A stretch of DNA of 64,000 nucleotides from Gigantopelta aegis (Eukaryota > Mollusca > Gastropoda > Neomphalida > Peltospiridae). Below, piece by piece: positions 50,460 to 63,107 of the stretch. The stretch is taken from assembly GCF_016097555.1 (NCBI RefSeq), contig NC_054701.1, positions 35,076,854 through 35,140,853 of the forward strand, in the 5' to 3' direction. Within the stretch, counting starts at the first letter, position 1. Each line of letters starts with the position of its first letter. The notes under the pieces are model-generated. The model was not told the origin of the DNA and searched no databases. It was given only the letters and a program-made list of their open reading frames with translations. Position numbers and translations under genes: made by a program.

Positions 50460-53400
50460 TCAAACTACTGATTCAAACGAGTATTCTGTTCCGCGGGAGA
50501 CCTTGGTACTGATGGACCCGCCAGCTGTATAATCTGACTGGGCAGCAGAGTTCACTGAAATCTGGCTGCTTCCATACTGAAAAACATAATAATAATAATA
50601 ATAATAACAACAATAACAATAACAATAACAACAACAATAACAATAATAACATTAATAATAATAATACACAAACATACACACAGAATATTTTGTTTTCAAA
50701 ATTTTTATTAGCAACAGTTGTTAATTGATTAAAATTGATTTGCATATATGCACAAACAGTCTGTTGTAACAAATAGTTTAACCAGGGGTCAAATCCTAAT
50801 TTTGAGGGGGGTCCACAAAAGGTGTTGCCTTTGGTTTAATAACAGAAGCAACAGTTGTTCATTGATTAAAATTGATTTGCACATATGCACAAACATAGTT
50901 TGTTATAACAAATAGTTTAACCAGGGGTCAAATCCTAATTATTATTATTTTGTAATTTTTTTTTTTATATTTTTTTTTTTGGGGGGGGGGGGGGGGTGTC
51001 ACAACAGGTGTTGCCTTTGGTTTAATAACAGAAATTAAGGTACCAAGGCAAGTTGGAGGCACCACTTATACATAAAGGGCACTTTAGTATATACTATTAT
51101 GTATGATATTCATAAGTCTAAGACTTGATTAAAACAAGCATTCTGAGAGTACTGCTAAATAATACATGTCGCCTACTGGGCCCAACAATTTTTTGTATAA
51201 TAAAGTCTGTGAAAAATGGGTAAATCGCCATGAAAGTTAAATTTGATCTGTAACATTACATGATAAAGCTATACAAAATTTCATCTCCATGTCTTCAGGC
51301 ATTGCAAAGAAAAAAAGGTCTGGAAAACAAATTTTTATATTGCTCAAGTTCAAGGGCCGTAACTGTGAAAAATGGGTAATTGACATGAAAGTCGAACTTG
51401 ATCTGTGACTGAACTTGATAAAGCTATAAACAAAAGTGCAGCCAAATATCTCTTGAGGCATTGCCAAAGAACAAAGTGGAAAACAAATTTTCATATCTCC
51501 TAAGTCCAAGGGCCACAACTGTCAAAAATGGGTAAATTAACATAAAAGTCAAACTTGAACTGTAACAGTACACAATAAAGCTCTACACACAATTTCAGCT
51601 CAATATCTCAAGGCATTCTAAAAACACAATATCCGAAAAACTATATGTGGGACAAATGGGACAGACAGACAGGACATAGATGAAACCTATAGTTCCCCTC
51701 CAGTTGGATCGGTAGGTGACAAATAAAATAAGCACAATATTTGTAAATACATACCTTCATACTGCCTAAAGTTGTGGTAGAACTAAATCCAAGATTATAG
51801 TAGCTTTTGGGTGGTAATGTTTCCTGTGGGTCGATGACGAAATCGTCCACATATTCCTTGACTAGTTTCCTGTGTTGTGGCAGGGCTGGTCCCCAGTCTC
51901 TGGCCGGCATGGTCAGCAGCCGAATTTTCTAAACAAAGATGTATAAATTGATTAATTTACGTAATTACTTTAGCTGACATGATCAACAGACATATATCAG
52001 GGCCGTAGCTAGTGTGGGGGGGGGGAGCAAGGGGGGGGGGAATTTCCCCCAGAATTTTTGAAAATAAAATCTTAAATCAAATTCTCTTCTTTACTGTTTA
52101 AGGAGTTTCAGACTATTAACTACTCAGTTGCCCCCCCCCCCCCCAAACGGCCCTGTATATTCTTCTGAATGAGTTATCCTTGCCATCTTGGACACATGGA
52201 CCGGCCTCGGTGGCGTCCTGGTTAGGCCATCGGTCTACAGGCTGGTAGGTACTGGGTTCGGATCCCAGTCAAGGCATGGGATTTTTAATCAAGATACCGA
52301 CTCCAAACCCTGAGTGAGTTCTCCACAAGGCTCAATGTGTAGGTGTAAATCACTTGCACCAACCAGTGATCCATAACTGGTTCAACAAAGGCCATGGTTT
52401 GTGCTATCCTGCCTGTGGGAAGCACAAATAAAAGAGTAGCCTATGTGGCAACAGCGGGTTTCCTATAAAAAAAAATATGTCAGAATGACCATATGTTTGA
52501 TGTCCAATAATTGATAAGATAAAAAAATCAATGTGCTCTAGTGGCGTCGTTAAATAAAACAAACTTTACTTTACTTGGACACATCCGCCGGGAAATTTGG
52601 AGAGTGTGCCTAAGACAGACATGCTTGAACCTTCAGAGATTTTTTGTTGTTTAACGACACCACTAGAGCACATTGATTTATTAATCATGGGCTATTGGAT
52701 GTCAAACATTTGGTAATACTGACATAAAGTCTTGGAGAGGAAACCCTCTATATTTGTCCATTAGTAGCAAGGATAACACATACCATGGCCTTTGAACGAC
52801 TTCAGTGGAATGACTTCAGTGAATATAAGCATATGTCAAGTAGTTGATTGATACATTTGTATTGCTCAGCCTTAATAAGATGAACACTTATATGGTAGCC
52901 CTTCCTACAGGAATTTACTCCAAGTTATTTATTTCTGAGCTGATTGTTTTCTAAATTGCACACAAAAATAGGTTTCGTTGTGTGTTTTTTTGTTACTTTC
53001 GAAACACTTTCGAAACACTTACTTTTCTTCTTAAGACAAACTAAAATTATTTACAAAAAACATTTTTGTAGGAGAATGGGACAGATTATATTATAGTTTG
53101 GCTATGTGGAAATGAGGAAATGTGGTGCCACCATATATAGACTTCTCCTAACAAATAGCTGCAAGGAATCTTTTGTATATTTCTTCATTCAGACGCAAAA
53201 ACACATATCATGGCATACAACCAGTAAGTTGTGTAACACTGGACGAAACTGGAAAAAATCCTACTTGGTCCAACAATGACCCATGTACCTCAGGCAAACA
53301 CTCTTAGTGTCTTTATCATAAGGGCCACAGACCTGGTGGGGGTTGTTGTGGGGCCATGCCTTCCATTCTCCCCTACTATTGTATTAGAAGACTGAAAATG

Positions 53401-56400
53401 CCCTATTTGAACACCTAAAATTCAAACATTTTGGGGGAAGCTTGCCCCAACCCCTCCCTAATAAATAGGTTTAGGTATCTTTAGACTCACAAATTCCATC
53501 CCATATGCCATTGTGCTAGCAGTGCCCCCCCCCCCCCCCCCCTAACACACACACTTTCAAATACACTCCACCAGCCCTGCATTTACAAGCTACACCTCCT
53601 GCCATATATGATAAAAGAAAGGGTTATGTGTTATGCCAATGGATGTGAAATATCCAAGATGGATAGAGTTTGTAACATTATGAACCTCCCCATCACCACC
53701 TCCTCACCTCCTAGTTCAAATCTTCCAAAGCCTATATTTTCAATCATGCTACTTACTAGAGCTGAGTGGTATTGGAATTTGAGGTTCGGTATCGATATCA
53801 GTATTTTTGGGGTGATTTACCTCAGTATCGGTACGGTATTCGGTATTGACACATTACCAATGCCGATAGCCAGTGGTATTTTCGTTATACTCGACTTTAA
53901 ATGAATGCCCGAGTTAAGGTTCACCCGCTAATTTCATCTAAATAAAATTAAATTCCACATACAAGGTTCTTGTCTGATTTATACCCAACCCATTTTGGGT
54001 TCGTCAGATATATTGTTAGTGCTTTACTAAATGGCGGGAAACATTTTTTAATAATACTGAAATTTCTATATTTTGAAATTTGCTAGGTATGGTAAATCAG
54101 TATTGACATGATACTGATCCCGAACAGTATATACAGTATACCGCCCAGCTCTACATGACCATATTTTTAATCGTGCTACTTAAATAGCGGATGGTGCTTC
54201 CCTCATCATCTCCAAGTTTAGATCTTCCAATGCCTGTATTTTAATCCTGCTACTTACATGTGCGATGGTGCTTCCCTCGTCGTCTCTGTTGATCTTGTAG
54301 ATCATGGTGATGGGGATGGCCAGCACGGAGGACAGGGACATGATCCAGCCCATAGCATCGGCCCACTCCGGGTACAGGTAGTCGCCGTACGTCATCCGCT
54401 CGTAGTCCACCCACGTGAAGATGAAAATAAACTGAAACAAGATGGTTTTGTTTATTACTATCACTGTATTTCACAGTGTTCTCTTGTAGTCCACCCACAT
54501 GAAGATAAAAAGACGGTTTTGGTTATTACTATCACAGTATTTCAGTGTTCTCTTGTAGTCCACCCACATGAAGATAAAAAGACTGTTTTGGTTATTACTA
54601 TCACAGTATTTCAGTGTTCTCTTGTAGTCCACCCACGTGAAGATAAAAAGACAGTTTTGGTTATTACTATCGCTGTATTTCACAGTGTTCTCTTGTAGTC
54701 CACCCACGTGAAGATAAAAAGACAGTTTTGTTTATTACTATCGCTGTATTTCACAGTGTTCTCTTGTAGTCCACCCACGTGAAGATAAAAAGACAGTTTT
54801 GTTTATTACTATCACTCTATTTCACAGTGTTCTCTCGTAGTCCACCCAGGCAAATATAAAGTTTGTTTTGTTTAATGACACCACTGGAACACATTAATGG
54901 ATTAATTAATCAGCAGCTATTTGATGTCAAAAACTTGGTAATACTGACACGTAGTCACATTTTTCCTATTGCAGCAAGGGATCTTTTATATGCACCATTC
55001 CACAAACAGGATATCACATACCACAGCCTTTGATATACCAGTAGTGGTGCACTGACTAGAACCATATTTAGCCTATATTAACTAGGGGGTGAGGATAGTA
55101 AACAAAAGTAAAGTTTGTTTTATTTAACGATGCCTCTAGAGCACATTGAATTTTATCTTATTATCGGCTATTGGATGTGAAACATATGGTCATTCTGACA
55201 TATTTCTTTAGAGGAAACCTGCTGCCGCCACATAGGCTACTCTTTCCGATAAGCAGCAAGGGGTCTTTTATATGCACTTTCCCACAGACAGGACAGCACA
55301 TACCACAGCCTTGTGGACCACTGGTTGGAACAGAAGATAGTAAACAAGGAATCGGGGCTCAGTAGCAATCCTGGCAATGCCATAGAGATTGCTATTGTGT
55401 GTTCAGTTTCTCGCAGCATTTATTTGGCCATGGAACTTTCAATTTTTGGTGTCACATTTCTTAGTGAATTATTTATTTTTGTAATACTGACAAATTAAAC
55501 TCTCTTGCATACTGACCACAAAATGTTTGGGTGGAAAATGCTGTGGAGACTATTGTTCCAAAGAATATGTTTGGCCATGGGCATTTTCTTAATTGCAAGA
55601 TTGCAGTAATATAGGGTAATCTCCAGCTAGATGACAGTGAATAACAAAAAACCATTTACATTTTTAAAATTGGATCTCTGCAAAAAGCAGAGTCAAAGGG
55701 TTATTTTGGCAATATGATTTTTCCAATGTGTCACTATCAGGTGTTTAGGGGTGGGACGTAGCCCAGTGGTAAAGCGCTCGCTCAATGCGTGGTCGGTCTG
55801 GGATTAATCCCTGTCGGTGGGCCCATTGGGCTATTTCTCATTCCAGCCAGTGCACCACAACTGGTATATCAAAGGCTGTGGTATGTATGTACTACCCTGT
55901 CTGTGGGATGGTACATATAAAAGATCCCTCAGTATCTGTGGTCCTTAAACATATGTCTGACGCCATATAATCGTAAATAAAAATGTGTTGAGTGCGTCAT
56001 TAAATAAAACATTTCCTCTTATCAGGTGTTTCACCATTTTTAAACTAAACAAAACAAAATATGCTAACTTTAAAACAAAAGGACTATCCAAAATTTGCAT
56101 TCATTAAATAGAGGATTAACTTGCTTGCATCTAATACATCTAGGCAATAAAAGCCAATTTTAAATATAAATGAGTTTGAAATATAAAGCATTATATCAAT
56201 AAATTAATGCTATTTTTTCTTTGACATAATTATTTCAAATTATGTTACATGTAGGTAGTTACAAGAAAAAAAAGAGTTAGATATGAAAATATTTTACACA
56301 AAACTGTCCATGTTGAGATATTACAAACATGATGACCGTAAATGAATAAAATATATAAGTTTTCAAATTCTAATTGGGATACTTGTATTAAAGTCATATT

Positions 56401-57847
56401 GTCACAGATCACTGACCTATTTAATGACCTAACAAAGTATTACCTGAACAAAAATAATTTGATTTGTCCCTAAATGTACTTTATTCAACCATCTTCATAA
56501 CTACCATACTCCATTTATTAATGATATTTTGTAATTGAAATAATTGAATTATGGCAATGGTCCATAATTCAAAAACTAAAATTGCCAAGAGAGTTGGCAT
56601 TGATTTCACTCCATCATGGTTCAGTTAAGGTGATGTGATAGCTAGATTTGATTTCCAACAATTAATGTAATTTTTATTTATTATCCATTTTTAGAGAAAT
56701 AAGGTCCTTAAATCCGTGACAGTATGCCTTTAAATGAAAGAGTATGGCTGAAAACATGTTACATATTCAATGACTACAAGTCTTCATTTCATTTCAACTT
56801 ATCTTTCGTGCTTATGTCCAATTAAGGTTCAAGCACATTGTCCTGGGCACACACCTCAGCTATCTTGGCTGTCTGTCCAGGACAGTGGGTTAGTTGGTTA
56901 GTAGTTAGTGAGAGGGAAGAGGGTGTAGTGGCCTTACACCTACCCACTGAGTCCTTAAGAACTCAATCTGGGTTGGAGCTGATACTGGGCTGTGAACCCT
57001 GTACCTACCAGCCTGTAGTCCGATGGCTTAACCACTGCGCCACCGAGGTCGGTTACAAGTCTTCAATAGGTTATTGCAAAACAAGACTTACAACAATGGT
57101 GACAGGACTTAATCCATACCAGCAGATCTTCCAGTAAATTGATGGTCTTTGTCCAGTCATGATTCTGATATCATTGAAGAATCTCTCAGCACCTGTCCAG
57201 AAAGAAATTGTTTTAACAAAATACACACTTCAAACACATTTATGTTCATTTTGGTGGGGAATATATTGATCTTTTGATAGGCTATACACTAATTACTCAT
57301 ACTGATGTCAAAATCATTGTAGAACATTCCCTGCCTATCTGTCACACTGCCATACAAAGAGGGTTGGTTACCCATCCTGGTGTTAAAATCATTGTAGAAC
57401 ATTCCCTGCCTATCTGTCACACTGCCATACAAAGAGGGTTGGTTACCCATCCTGGTGTTAAAATCATTGTAGAACATTCCCTGCCTATCTGTCACACTGC
57501 CATACAAAGAGGGTTGGTTACCCATCCTGGTGTTAAAATCATTGTAGAACATTCCCTGCCTATCTGTCACACTGCCATACAAAGAGGGTTGGTTACCCAT
57601 CCTGGTGTTAAAATCATTGTAGAACATTCCCTGCCTATCTGTCACACTGCCATACAAAGAGGGTTGGTTACTCATCCTGGTGTTAAAATCATTGTAGAAC
57701 ATTCCCTGCCATTCACATGACACCCCCTACCTACTAGAATGTTAATTAATTGTTAAGCAATTTTTTTTATCTTTGTTCCCTGACACCAGATTGTTTGATA
57801 ATGTGCAATAAATTTAATTGGATTGCTGAATGTCATTTTATTATTAT

Positions 57848-57938
<91 letters not shown>

Positions 57939-60900
57939 ATATATTTTGTGTACAGAACTGATCGATTGATACTTGTAGCACTAGCTAGGGTTTATAAAGT
58001 CAGGAAAGAATATAAATACTTTAATAAACATTCTGAGATAATTATTGATTAAGTCAAAGTCTGCTCAATTTCTTCTCCATCCTTTCATTTGATGTTTTCA
58101 TTAGACATATGACTAGATACTTAAAAACTAATTTGTGTCAATACAGCTATTGAATTGAAAGTGAAATGTATAGGCCTACTTACCATATATAAATGCTATG
58201 GCCACTACTTCAAAGAAGCCAATAATAATGAGTGTCCATCCACCTCCGTATGTGTCCATTAGTTGTAGTAAATATATTCCACCCTGAGAAAATAACAGAA
58301 TATAGCATATCTATAAATGAATGAATGAATCTTTAATGACACACAACATAAAAATACACCTGGCTACTGGGTGTCAAACAAAGGTAAGTGCATGAATGCT
58401 AGAAGGGCAATTCAGTTAATATGTTTGAGTTTCCTCTAGCCCTATTCAGTTTATATGTGAGAATACAAACAAAGATGATAAATTACGTTTGTTTGATTAA
58501 CGACACCACTAGAGTACATTGATTATTAATCATCGGCTATTGGATGTCAATGGGTTTCCAGAGACAGGCCCCGAGACGGACATGCTTGAAACTCTAGTGG
58601 TATATGAGCATGTAAAAATTATTCACACTCACACTCAAACATTTGGTAATTCTGACATATAGTCTTAAAGGAAACCTGCTACATTTTCCCATTAGCAGCA
58701 AAGGTTCTTTTATTTGCACATTCCCACAGAGAAAACAGCACATACAACAGACTGTGATATACCTGTCGTGAGGCATTTGTTGGAATGGGAAAAAAACCAA
58801 TCAGAAAATACAGTTAGTCCACTCAAACTGCCAAAGGCTTGGCACCCATTACGCATGTGCGCAATGCAAAAAAATCTGGGAATAGGTCAAGGCTGTCTGT
58901 AATTGTTCTATAAAATATCCTCTTCCATTTTTCAGTAATTAAGTTTCCCCAATAAAGCGATGTGCGTAATGCTAAAATATTTCTGGCTGTGCCCTGACTA
59001 TCCCCTCCGTGTATGATACTGTATGTACACTGCATATGAATTTAAAAACAGTGCTACAAAAGGATTAAATATCAATGGCAATATATAGACTAATGCTTGT
59101 GGAATTGTTTACAATTGTGAACAGCTCCTTGAATAAAACATTAAGATGGATGTGTATGACATGACATTTCTTTTTTCTTAAAGGTGCAGACACTAAGTTT
59201 ACTTAATCTACAAACCTGCAACACACATTTGGATAAGGTTATAACAGAGAGAGGCTAAAGTATGTAATGTTTAAACAGGAAAATACAAACGTGCATTTTT
59301 AGAATTATGATAAATTTGCATTTTGGAGTATTGCAAAAACCAGGATGACCAGAACCACATCAGGTGTACAAAAATTAATATTCTAAATAATAAAATGTAA
59401 GTACTTCTAATTTAAATTATCAAAAACAGTGTTTAAAAACTGGGGTCTGTCACTTTAACAATAAAAAGTAACGTACCTGGCAGGTGAGCGGCAATCCCAG
59501 TAAAAAGAACAAGAATGACAAGGCGAGTATGACCCACGTTTTCTTCTTCCTGAGGTGTGGGAACTGATCTGTGAATGCAGTCAGTACCGTCTCCATCATG
59601 GCAAACTGGGATGGGAAAAAAGACAATATTAAACAATCTAATAGAGTTTATATATGCTACAAGGCCATAAGAAACCGGGGGAGGCATTTCCACCCCCTCC
59701 ACTTGAGACCCAAAACATTTACTTTTTTTGTCCTATGTATAAAATCCAACAAACATATTTTTCAGTCACTTCACTGAAAGCACCAGTGATATACCCCTAC
59801 AAAAAATAATAAAATACTAAAACAAAATACCAAACAACAACACTTCTAATTCAAATGTATAGAGCTGTGGTTAAAAAGAAAAGAAATGCAGAGCACCAAA
59901 CAATCAATACTTACACAAAAAAGTAAAGTTTGTTTTATTTAACGACGCCACTAGAGCACATTGATTTTTAATCTTATCATCGGCTATTGGACGTCAAACA
60001 TATGGTCATTCTGACACTGTTTTTAGAGGAAACCCGCTGTCGCCACATAGGCTACTCTTTTTTACGACAGGCAGCAAGGGATCTTTTATTTGCGCTTCCC
60101 ACAGGCAGGATAGCACAAACCATGGCCTTTGTTGAACCAGTTATGGATCACTGGTCGGTGCAAGTGGTTTACACCTACCCATTGAGCCTTCCGGAGCACT
60201 CACTCAGGGTTTGGAGTCGGTATCTGGATTAAAAATCCCATGCCTCGACTGGGATCCGAACCCAGTACCTACCAGCCTGTCAATACTTACACAATCTAAT
60301 AACAAGTATTTGTGAAAACCTCCCCAAAAAGTCATGTATTTAAACAAATTAACCCCCCCCCCCCCCCCCCACTGGCCCTCCCATTGATTAGTATCAGTAT
60401 GATCTGATGATAGAATGAAGGAATACTAGTATTTGAGACCAAAAAAAACCCAGTTTGAGAACATTTGGATGTCTTGGAGAGAAAACCTGCAACATGTTTC
60501 CGTTAATAGCAATGGTTCTTTTATATGCACCATTCCACAGACAAGATAGCACATACCACGGCCTTTGAAATACCAGCCGTGGTGCTCTCACTGGAATGAG
60601 AAATAGCCCAATGAACTCAACGATGGGGATCGATCCTAGACTGACCGAGCATCGGACAAGCACTTTACCAACAGGCTGTGTCACATCCCTATTTGAAACC
60701 AAATTTAAATCACTACTAGAATAAAGGCTATAGATGCAATATGGGATTGACTGCCACTAATACACAGCTATTTCCTATTATTGTGGATGAGGGTTTAGGT
60801 TGCAGTCAATATTTGCCATAGGCATATGAGCTTCCATTTTGGGGGCAGGCTAATATTAAATATCAATGACAGTATTTTACATGGCTACCCATAATCTATG

Positions 60901-62269
60901 TTTGGGGAGCAATTAATCGCTCCCCACTATTGTTTTCATGGGTAGGTCTGCTTTCCATCAGTATAATATATAATATTAAAATTCCTACCTGGCTGTCCAG
61001 ACCAAGAGTGAGCAGCATGAAGAAGAAGAGGATCGCCCACAGTGTGGACGGAGGTAAACTGGACACCGCTTCGGGGTACACCACGAAAGCCAAACCAGCT
61101 CCTGCAAACATTAACGGGACATTCCTGAGACTTTTTAACGATTGTAATTACATTTCAAATATATTTTCCTGCATATCATATTAGTGGCTGTATATTAAAT
61201 GTGTTTCTGATCGTTCTAATATTTGTACTAGCATAAATTTCATTTTATTTCCTAAAATATTTTGTTCGTACATACGAAATTATTTGAAGACAAATCCAGT
61301 TTGGGCTTCTTACAAATATGAAGACGACCAGAAACATATTGAACATACAGACACTGGTATTCTAAACATGAAAATATATTTAATATGTAAGTTTAATCGT
61401 AGAAATATTTTATTAGTCTGAAACATTGTCCAATGCAACAAATTCAGGAATGTCCCTTTAAGTTTAAAAAATATCAATATTTAAGTAGCTGCATTAGATT
61501 AACCAATTTATGTTCCTACCCACTGCTCCTTTGGAATTTTGTGTTGGCTATTACCCTAGTTCCAATTATTGGAACATATATTCATGAATAAAAATAAGAC
61601 ATTGTTTTGAAAACATTAGGCCTACACAATTCTTGCCAAACACCTACCTCCCTTATTCAACGTTTTGTATGCCTAACACATTGTAAGGCATTACCTGACC
61701 CCCACCCATCCCATAGTACATTCAGTATATACTGAACGGAATTTTATGAGAGGGAAAAAATTCCTACTTTCTACAACTAATTTATTATTATATTTGGCTG
61801 TGAACCATATTTTTAAAGTATCTTGTCCTCATTTTATACATTTCAGTTAAACAGTAATCAGTTAATTAATTTTGTAATTAACCATAGATGTCTTAGGCAT
61901 AGCTGCGCTTAAGGATTTGCTTGAATTATTAAAAATTTGCTTGAGTTATTGAACAATTTTCTACCCCCTCAAAAAAGAAAGAGAAACAAAGAAGAGCAAA
62001 GTCACGAATTTCACTGGATTGGGGAGACACACTTCTTCAGAACCCCTTCTTATATAAATGAGATCAGCATTGATACTTACCATCTGTTGCTACATCTTTA
62101 ACATGAACACCAAGTTTTTTGGCCATGTGACCCAGATAGGAAAATATGACAAATCCAGCAAATATGCATGTCAACGAGTCTCCAAAACACACAATCAGCG
62201 AATCTCTGAAAAAGGAACCGAGTATATGAGTACAACAGGTGGGGGTGGGGGTGGGACTTGGGGGGGGGG

Positions 62270-62316
<47 letters not shown>

Positions 62317-63107
62317 GGAGGGCGCAAGCCAGATTTTTATGTTTATTTATATAGAGTAGCACAAAAAAGTATATATATATTTGTTCTCGCGTGGGGTCTG
62401 TACCAACCACCGCACCCGCCCTCCTTATCCTACGGTTCATATTTTCCGCTTGGTTACAGTTCGAGATATAATTTATCATTTCATTTAAAAACAACATGGG
62501 CGGATCCAAGGGGGGGACCAGGGGGACGCGTCCCCCCCCAAAATTGTTCAAGTGCCCTCAAAATGTCCAAGTGCCCTTTTTGTTTGTAGAATTTTTTTTT
62601 TTTTAAGTAAACAATAATTATATTGTAGATAAATGAAATCAAGATTTTCGTGTACATGCGCAAGCTTGCAGATATGTGTCTGTGTTATTGAGTCTCAATG
62701 GGGCCCCATTGAGGTTCTAACGCGAGTGACGCCAATTTACTTCATTATTGCTAGTATATTATGACGTAGAACTGTAGGAATTCATATTATTTGTAAATAT
62801 CAAAACTTGTAGTAAGGTGCCCTTTTGACGAGTCAATGTGCCCTTCTTTTTTGGTCCCCCCCTAAAAATATTTCCTGGATCCGCCCATGAACAATCAGTA
62901 AATACATCTTCAAAATAAATAAGTAAACAAACAAAGATAATAATCAGCCAGACAAATAAATGGATTTCTCTAAGAGAGTGATATGTAAGGCCTGTGAACT
63001 TACTTGAGAATGTTGTTGTTGAATCGATTGTAACTAGAGAGCGTGATAAGACCACCTCCTGCGATCGACATGGAGAAGAAAATTTGGTTTGCTGCATCTT
63101 TCCACAC
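50460..63107 (-). CDS. SLC6-family sodium-coupled transporter, glycine-transporter-like (5' end outside window)
   Basis: Nine exons on the minus strand join in phase: 63107-63004, 62205-62081, 61101-60989, 59605-59477, 58283-58184, 57192-57092, 54431-54258, 51928-51755 and 50576-50460, giving 378 residues and TGA. TM6 reads [22 protein letters not shown]7 [17 protein letters not shown]; then [10 protein letters not shown] and TM8 [15 protein letters not shown] with the Asp-Ser pair of the Na2 sodium site; TM9 to TM12 follow. [14 protein letters not shown] and [10 protein letters not shown] closely resemble glycine-transporter sequence. The protein would sit in the plasma membrane and import an amino acid or neurotransmitter with sodium. 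TM6 has Gly where glycine transporters have Trp (SLSAAWGG), and TM7 has Asp and Cys where animal members usually have Asn and Ser at the chloride site. The tail ends ESVV, a class I PDZ ligand. TM1 to TM5 lie beyond the window, so the substrate is undecided. Confidence 0.9.
50588..50669. repeat. Trinucleotide-like microsatellite
   Basis: AAT/AAC-type repeats immediately beyond the last SLC6 exon in the intron. Confidence 0.8.
51120..51715 (+). mobile_element. Internally repeated dispersed element, third copy
   Basis: Three units of about 156 bases, each with a gaaagtcaaacttgatctgt-like motif (near 51232, 51388 and 51545), ending gggacagacagacaggacat. It abuts the SLC6 exon 51755-51928. Confidence 0.65.
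51998..52157. mobile_element. MITE with cagggccg termini
   Basis: cagggccgtagctag at the left and acggccctg at the right; G- and C-runs lie just inside. SLC6 intron. Confidence 0.6.
52200..52577 (+). mobile_element. SINE, full length, head 3
   Basis: The head (ccggcctcggtggcgtcctg, then B box gggttcggatccc) differs from heads 1 and 2. It is joined through a linker (gactccaaaccctgagtgag) to the shared body and a tail with gctctagtggcgtcgttaaa. It lies in an SLC6 intron. Confidence 0.88.
52644..52802 (-). mobile_element. SINE fragment, tail B
   Basis: tttaacgacaccactagagc to agcaaggataacacatacca on the plus strand, with part of the body missing. It lies close to the preceding SINE in the opposite orientation. 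Confidence 0.75.
52905..53100. mobile_element. MITE family 2, second copy, left end eroded
   Basis: Interior agttatttatttctgagc and the right end gaatgggacagattata follow the 8330 copy. It lies in an SLC6 intron. Confidence 0.65.
53148..53325 (-). mobile_element. Degenerate SINE
   Basis: agctgcaaggaatctttt and acacatatcatggc keep body order in reverse, followed by a decayed head. Confidence 0.45.
53757..54153. mobile_element. MITE with tagagctg termini
   Basis: tagagctgagtggtattgg and ataccgcccagctcta are inverted ends, with ggtatcgatatc-type subterminal motifs. It is related to 40293-40614 and lies in an SLC6 intron. Confidence 0.75.
54176..54258. repeat. Duplicate of the other end of the same SLC6 exon
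   Basis: gatggtgcttccctcatcat (54190) repeats the exon end gatggtgcttccctcgtcgt (54264) about 74 bases away. On the minus strand the donor GTAAGT appears as TTAAGT in the copy. Confidence 0.75.
54402..54860. repeat. About 70-bp minisatellite derived from an SLC6 exon start
   Basis: The first part of exon 54431-54258 (gtagtccacccacgtgaag on the plus strand) recurs at 54486, 54555, 54624, 54695, 54765 and 54837, together with intron sequence. Copies encode FIFMWVDYK-like peptides and lack the CAG acceptor. Confidence 0.88.
54856..55078 (-). mobile_element. SINE, tail B, head lost
   Basis: aaagtttgttttgtttaatg to gatataccagtagtggtgc on the plus strand. It begins directly at the edge of the 54.4-54.85 kb tandem array. 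Confidence 0.82.
55109..55345 (-). mobile_element. SINE, head lost, tail as in the head 3 copies
   Basis: Tail (tttatttaacgatgcctcta) and body to ctggttggaac. The tail most resembles the copies at 52200 and 59919. Confidence 0.8.
55747..56028 (+). mobile_element. SINE, head 1 and tail A
   Basis: Head with tagcccagtggtaaagcg, B-box-like gggattaatccc, body with a loss after aaaagatccc, and tail A. It lies in an SLC6 intron. Confidence 0.85.
56825..57052 (-). mobile_element. SINE with head 3 and a different body
   Basis: On the minus strand the head reads ggtggcgcagtggttaag with B-box-like gggttcacagccc, then a body with gtcctggacagacagcc unlike the common one. The body core is shared with 16160-16350 and 46262-46480. 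It ends 40 bases from an SLC6 exon. Confidence 0.65.
57286..57715. repeat. 75-bp minisatellite
   Basis: Nearly six almost identical copies with gggttggttacccatcctgg and aacattccctgcctatctgt. Because 75 is a multiple of three, both strands stay open, giving false ORFs. SLC6 intron. Confidence 0.93.
57850..57938. repeat. CT microsatellite followed by GT
   Basis: Uninterrupted ct for about 75 bases, then gt. SLC6 intron. Confidence 0.95.
58320..58400 (-). mobile_element. SINE tail C fragment
   Basis: gaatgaatgaatctttaatg, then ctggctactgggtgtcaaac, matches tail C in reverse. Confidence 0.5.
58488..58830 (-). mobile_element. SINE, tail B, with an 88-bp foreign insert
   Basis: The tail stops after attggatgtcaa near 58550 and resumes with aaacatttggtaattctg near 58638. 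The insert contains acggacatgcttgaaactct, which resembles 52605-52640. Confidence 0.7.
59182..59454. mobile_element. TTAA-flanked MITE, family 2
   Basis: Left ttaaaggtgcagacacta and right ggtctgtcactttaa are inverted and flanked by TTAA (59178-59181, 59455-59458). It ends 18 bases from the SLC6 exon 59605-59477 boundary, on the donor side. Confidence 0.75.
59919..60279 (-). mobile_element. SINE, full length, head 3, with target-site duplication
   Basis: Complete copy of the 52200 type. It is flanked by identical 15-bp copies of tcaatacttacacaa at 59904-59918 and 60280-60294, suggesting recent insertion. It lies in an SLC6 intron. Confidence 0.93.
60455..60692 (-). mobile_element. SINE, head 1, tail lost
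   Basis: Body (gcaccattccacagacaaga) to head (gatggggatcgatcctagac) in reverse; the distal tail is missing. Confidence 0.8.
61115..61457. mobile_element. TTAA-flanked MITE, uninterrupted copy of 18062-19388
   Basis: cgggacattcctgagac to caggaatgtccct between TTAA at 61111-61114 and 61458-61461. It shares ttagtggctgtatattaaa and ccagtttgggcttcttacaa with the other copy. It lies 7 bases from the CAG acceptor of SLC6 exon 61101-60989. Confidence 0.9.
62262..62314. repeat. G-rich and TG microsatellite
   Basis: A G run followed by about 22 TG units, some 60 bases from SLC6 exon 62205-62081, on the acceptor side. Confidence 0.9.
62495..62889. mobile_element. MITE with catgggcggatcc termini
   Basis: catgggcggatccaagg at the left and ctggatccgcccatg at the right; interior repeats of gtgccctttt on both sides. 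It lies between the first two SLC6 exons of the window. Confidence 0.78.

Follow-up and report, generated by a model that had tools for sequence, protein, structure and literature searches.

How far does an animal SLC6 carrier still need chloride once residues of its ion site have been exchanged? This question is raised by a gene of the gastropod Gigantopelta aegis that lies in a stretch of 64,000 nucleotides, here called the window (G000:C3:35076854-35140853; genome of 1.149 Gb). A first-pass annotation of this DNA had reported Asp and Cys at the TM7 positions where Asn and Ser are usual, had taken both positions for chloride ligands and had proposed that chloride dependence may be reduced or lost.

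The window gene encodes a GlyT2-like SLC6 protein

One SLC6 gene lies on the minus strand of the window: eight of its exons, from TM6 to the C-terminus, are inside the window (Table 1), and five more (TM1-2, TM3, EL2, TM4 and TM5), all open and with borders set by eye, are just beyond it in locus L031. AG/GT borders flank each of the seven exons from TM6 to TM12, which splice in frame into a stop-free product of 282 residues that matches PF00209 (SNF) at 337 bits (E 2.5e-100). The spliced protein comprises 582 residues, the C-terminal exon not counted, and the stretch read as its first exon holds no in-frame start codon. Membership in the SLC6/SNF family is also seen in the PDB matches of the spliced protein, which span TM1 to TM12. 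The best of them is GlyT2 (634.8 bits, 1.2e-189), with 292 of 562 aligned columns identical (52%) and a nearly identical TM1, followed by GlyT1 (590.9 bits), PROT (575.4) and, close behind, a dopamine transporter (571.9). The GlyT2 chain, 797 residues long, is numbered in a way that fits the human residues N509, S513, W482 and E248 as given in PMC7377260.

Table 1. Exons and key codons of the SLC6 gene, in window positions
Feature	Position	Strand	Remarks
TM6 exon	63004..63107	-	QIFFS kept; Gly at the place of GlyT2 Trp482 (substrate site)
TM7 exon	62081..62205	-	AG/GT borders; contains the Asp and Cys codons
Asp codon GAC	62178..62180	-	Place of the Na1-site Asn: SERT N368, GlyT2 N509, LeuT N286, KAAT1 D338
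Cys codon TGC	62166..62168	-	Place of the direct chloride ligand Ser: SERT S372, GlyT2 S513, LeuT E290
TM8 exon	60989..61101	-	Na2-site Asp (GlyT2 D577) retained
TM9 exon	59477..59605	-	
TM10 exon	58184..58283	-	Extracellular-gate Asp (GlyT2 D633) and GlyT2 E648 retained
TM11 exon	57092..57192	-	
TM12 exon	54258..54431	-	
Cytoplasmic C-terminal exon	51755..51928	-	Acceptor TTTAG, donor GTATGT; borders by eye

Several repeats accompany the gene. The intron preceding the TM12 exon contains a 71-bp tandem array of 5.7 copies (window 54445-54848), whose units echo a piece like the start of that exon (FIFTWVDY) and could offer decoy 3' splice sites, and a 75-bp minisatellite of 5.6 copies with 98% matches (window 57293-57710) sits in the intron immediately upstream of the TM11 exon. 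The EL2 exon in L031 begins with a tandem duplication at ~106 bp (~5360-5145, minus strand) that takes in the TTTCTGTAG acceptor; as judged by eye, both copies are open in frame. Upstream of the gene, open stretches resembling a Tc1-like transposase were noted by eye beside an N block (L032, ~4784-3980, minus strand).

Two chloride ligands and the adjoining Na1 ligand are replaced

The minus-strand codons of TM7 read GGA GAC TCG TTG ACA TGC ATA TTT GCT GGA TTT, and a gap-free HMMER alignment sets the encoded Asp on GlyT2 N509 and the Cys on GlyT2 S513. Codons, exon and alignment together bear out the two TM7 replacements, and the reported retention of Gln and Ser in TM6 is confirmed in the TM6 exon. 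When the window was searched for a second or alternative TM7 exon, using GlyT2 and the TM7 exons of three paralogues, none was found, and a base-calling or local sequencing error is unlikely, as Asp, Cys and the TM2 Phe described below would demand three independent errors.

The view that both TM7 positions are chloride ligands proved wrong. In SERT, chloride is coordinated by Asn101, Tyr121, Gln332, Ser336 and Ser372, and Asn368 is a Na1 ligand (PMC12139788); in GAT1 chloride is held by Gln291, Ser295, Tyr86 and Ser331, with Asn327 in Na1 (PMC10352132), and the chloride ligands of SIT1 are Asn27, Tyr47, Gln247, Ser251 and Ser287 (PMC11217458). The TM7 Asn is thus a ligand of Na1, and only the Ser contacts chloride directly. 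A further change lies beyond the window, where TM2 reads GGGAFLFPF versus GGGAFLIPY in GlyT2, placing Phe at the Tyr ligand (SERT Y121, GlyT2 Y233), which strengthens the case for reduced chloride dependence. In total, two of the five direct chloride ligands are replaced (TM2 Tyr by Phe and TM7 Ser by Cys) along with the adjoining Na1 Asn (by Asp), and the other three, Asn in TM1 and both Gln and Ser in TM6, are retained.

Among the Na1 and Na2 residues, TM1 GLGN, TM6 Ser and TM8 Asp are kept, and the Asp that stands for the Na1 Asn in TM7 is still an oxygen donor. The window protein also shares with GlyT2 the TM6 Gln/Ser pair, Asp577 (Na2), Glu248 in TM2 and both Asp633 and Glu648 in TM10; it departs from it at Tyr233, Asn509, Ser513 and Trp482, which are Phe, Asp, Cys and Gly. 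The last three of these positions are sites of human GlyT2 missense changes in hyperekplexia, namely N509S at the Na+ site, S513I at the Cl- site and W482R at the glycine site (PMC7377260). Since Gly takes the place of Trp482, a residue of the glycine pocket, we do not class the protein as a glycine transporter, and the substrate of the predicted carrier would be other than glycine.

Ion-site residues vary among paralogues of the same genome

At least 24 distinct TM7 exons are readable in the genome, which also gives ~40 TM8 and 41 TM2 matches; in the TM7 count a duplicated exon at C2:1.31M was entered once and one exon with an in-frame stop was included. The duplicated exon consists of two TM7 exons (L034/L082; C2:1315291-1315455 and 1314143-1314280) that are identical over 39 compared residues and lie ~1.1 kb apart on one strand, which reflects either an exon duplication or an assembly duplicate. 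An SLC6 expansion is mentioned for scallops (PMC8150855), and a family of large size is thus nothing out of the ordinary.

Among the 24 distinct exons read, the Asn place of TM7 is occupied by Asn in 12, by Asp in seven (window gene, C12:47.02M, C10:33.50M, C8:24.02M, C6:19.58M, C15:6.75M and C14:30.99M) and by Gly or Ser followed by Glu in five. The Ser place holds Ser in 23 of the 24, Cys being found in the window gene only. At the TM2 Tyr place, 30 of the 41 matches have Tyr and 11 have Phe, counting near-identical copies and a few divergent matches. When TM2 and TM7 exons were paired by proximity and strand, Phe accompanied Asp in two of the seven Asp genes (window and C12) and Tyr in the other five (C10, C15, C14:31.0M, C6:19.58M and C8). 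Phe was also found alongside TM7 Asn and Ser (C9:36.85M) and near Gly/Ser-Glu exons on C6:93M, a region with Phe in three TM2 exons. Being frequent in the genome, and present in a gene with both TM7 Asn and Ser, Phe alone is a weak sign.

The five Gly/Ser-Glu genes, L041 (C6:93.34M), L087 (C6:93.29M), L046 (C1:12.55M, the exon with the in-frame stop), L072 (C14:50.84M) and L081 (C14:43.68M), read GEGTS or SEGTS in TM7, and the one that we examined has GlyT1 as its best match over TM6-8. In LeuT a Glu directly follows N286, and the Gly/Ser-Glu type is possibly another way to replace chloride. Elsewhere in the family, L005 (C6:19.58M) and L095 (C14:43.67M) have Thr for the TM6 chloride-site Ser (QVFFT and QIFYT), and Thr at this place also occurs in LeuT (T254) and in a jellyfish protein (PMC6590891). 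The TM7-Asp paralogue L103 (C15:6.77M) carries the motif GKP in TM2, which perhaps corresponds to KAAT1 Lys102, and may be a KAAT1-like carrier of Gigantopelta aegis.

Among 18 genes of its own genome the window gene has no close paralogue, identities being 42-63% over 43 to 116 columns. By TM2 its closest relatives are three C2 genes (60-62%), all with Tyr, and the two of these whose TM7 exon was read have Asn and Ser intact; over TM6-TM8 GlyT2 comes first (64%), followed by the C10 gene with Asp (63%). A weakly supported tree of 22 sequences over ~116 columns (19 of the 24 TM7 genes, L006, L036, L037, L046 and L087 being left out, plus three reference proteins) places the window gene beside C14:16.77M, which has Asn and Ser, with a support value of 0.91. 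From these comparisons, Asp may be either the window gene's own change or common to the C10 and C12 genes; the Cys is, to judge from the exons read, a change of its own. Across TM6-TM8, the window gene departs from two of the 28 columns that are otherwise conserved, and the other 21 rows have 0 to 5 such alterations (of 8 to 29 columns), so the window gene, resembling its paralogues in this respect, is not decaying in general.

Charge compensation beside Na1 as a candidate mechanism

Five side chains hold the anion in chloride-dependent relatives, namely Asn of TM1, Tyr of TM2, Gln and Ser of TM6 and Ser of TM7. The anion is believed to balance the charge of the Na1 sodium, itself bound partly by the TM7 Asn. 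Anion binding in the window protein would be weakened by loss of the Tyr hydroxyl (Phe) and by exchange of the Ser hydroxyl for a weaker thiol donor (Cys), while Asp at the Na1 Asn would fix a carboxylate beside Na1, by which negative charge can be supplied without chloride. We infer such charge compensation, with lowered chloride dependence, for the window protein, and a reduced dependence, as originally proposed, is judged the most likely consequence of the residues found. Taken as a whole, the sequence points, with a probability of about one half, to an SLC6 protein close to the glycine-transporter branch that would use the sodium gradient to take up a small substrate resembling an amino acid, with chloride dependence either diminished or absent.

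The first-pass annotation had also drawn on bacterial homologues in which an acid replaces chloride. This part stands insofar as LeuT and TnaT, two chloride-independent bacterial NSS proteins, have an acidic residue fixed in the pocket that is thought to stand in for the anion; however, their acid occupies the Ser place (PMC12139788), which is E290 in LeuT and Cys, with no acidic residue, in the window protein. The acid of the window protein comes four residues before that, at the Asn place, and would thus be a solution other than the bacterial one. A nearer precedent, absent from the first-pass annotation, is offered by the insect carriers KAAT1 and CAATCH1, in which Asp (D338) at this very place accompanies weak chloride dependence, although some sensitivity to chloride persists (PMC8310414). 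Acids introduced into the site of animal carriers lead to chloride independence or come near it: chloride dependence is nearly abolished in GlyT2-S515E and GlyT1-S339E (PMC6166138), and GAT1 S331E is chloride-independent (PMC10352132). The human carriers SLC6A15, A17 and A19 (the B0AT group) resemble the window protein in having an altered chloride ligand. These three, which are chloride-independent, each deviate at one of four chloride-coordinating residues, versus two direct ligands plus the Na1 Asn in the window protein, and all four are intact in A18 and A20, two members that do interact with the anion (PMC6590891).

The correspondence between TM7 residues and chloride is not strict. The B0AT1 chains in the PDB, with that of 6m17 presumably human, have TM7 Asn and Ser intact. 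This is at odds with a remark in PMC8310414 that most B0AT1 and B0AT2 orthologues have Asp for Asn; and as B0AT1 is called chloride-independent (PMC8310414, PMC6590891) with both residues in place, the TM7 residues predict chloride dependence imperfectly.

Alternative readings of the replaced ion site

A serious alternative, though a less probable one, is that the Asp mainly alters the cation site, changing Na1 selectivity (for example towards K+) or coupling, with a chloride stimulation that depends on the substrate. It takes its strength from the TM7 Asn being a Na1 ligand (PMC12139788, PMC10352132) and from KAAT1 and CAATCH1, lepidopteran K+-accepting amino acid transporters of weak chloride dependence, which have Asp (D338) at the identical place, that of LeuT N286. 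According to PMC8310414, mutation of D338 in KAAT1 mainly affects coupling and the interaction with cations, D338N and D338E having changed ionic selectivity. KAAT1 uptake still falls when chloride is removed, and an Asp by itself need not end chloride dependence. By that published description, the likeness stops short of several other places: KAAT1 has an unusual TM1 environment of Na1 and Na2 (Ala66, Thr67, Ser68), Lys102 in TM2 and an uncharged polar side chain at the Ser place (PMC8310414), whereas the window protein has a GlyT2-like TM1 (GYAVGLGN), VGIPLFF in TM2 with Ile at the probable Lys102 place (located by eye), and Cys.

The three direct ligands that remain argue against chloride loss, and the chloride site might simply still function, TM1 Asn, TM6 Gln and Ser and the Cys thiol binding chloride, and the Asp being protonated or Asn-like, which would give a dependence of lower affinity. 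Phe at the Tyr place also occurs in other paralogues of the genome, as would suit a working site. We regard this as improbable because two direct ligands are lost together, a carboxylate adjoins the anion site, and acidic residues removed or almost removed chloride dependence in GAT1 and the glycine transporters (PMC10352132, PMC6166138). Least probable is a protein that does not transport at all, be it the product of a gene in decay or a paralogue with a receptor-like or regulatory role. The joint alteration of the three GlyT2 disease positions and the first-exon stretch without a start codon would fit such a protein, but the eight window exons and five upstream exons are open with AG/GT borders (in part set by eye), the share of altered conserved columns is like that of the paralogues, and the Na2, gate and GlyT2 Glu residues are all retained.

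Reduced chloride dependence through charge compensation is our preferred reading. A broader proposal, which we put forward tentatively and hold to be less probable, is that the protein represents a second chloride-free architecture near the animal glycine-transporter branch, with the charge fixed on a Na1 ligand and the Tyr and Ser ligands dismantled, and that this genome has re-engineered the ion site repeatedly.

Significance for SLC6 chloride coupling

Asp at the TM7 Asn place has been described in insects and turns up several times in this genome, and is not new in kind. A partial literature search, covering titles and the starts of abstracts, pointed to no mollusc SLC6 protein with an altered chloride site, and neither that material nor the papers cited here described all three replacements together, a Cys for the TM7 Ser or such diversity of chloride sites within one invertebrate genome. 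The reason why animal SLC6 carriers acquired chloride dependence is described as an open question (PMC8310414), and the window gene, a relative of GlyT2 in which three such residues are naturally exchanged, bears on this question. Two of its replaced positions, N509 and S513, are together with W482 those struck by missense changes in human hyperekplexia (PMC7377260), and paralogues with the ordinary residues, such as the two C2 genes in which Tyr, Asn and Ser are all present, provide a within-species comparison for a fixed charge at Na1. If the ion site has indeed been re-engineered repeatedly, chloride coupling would be an evolvable trait inside one animal.
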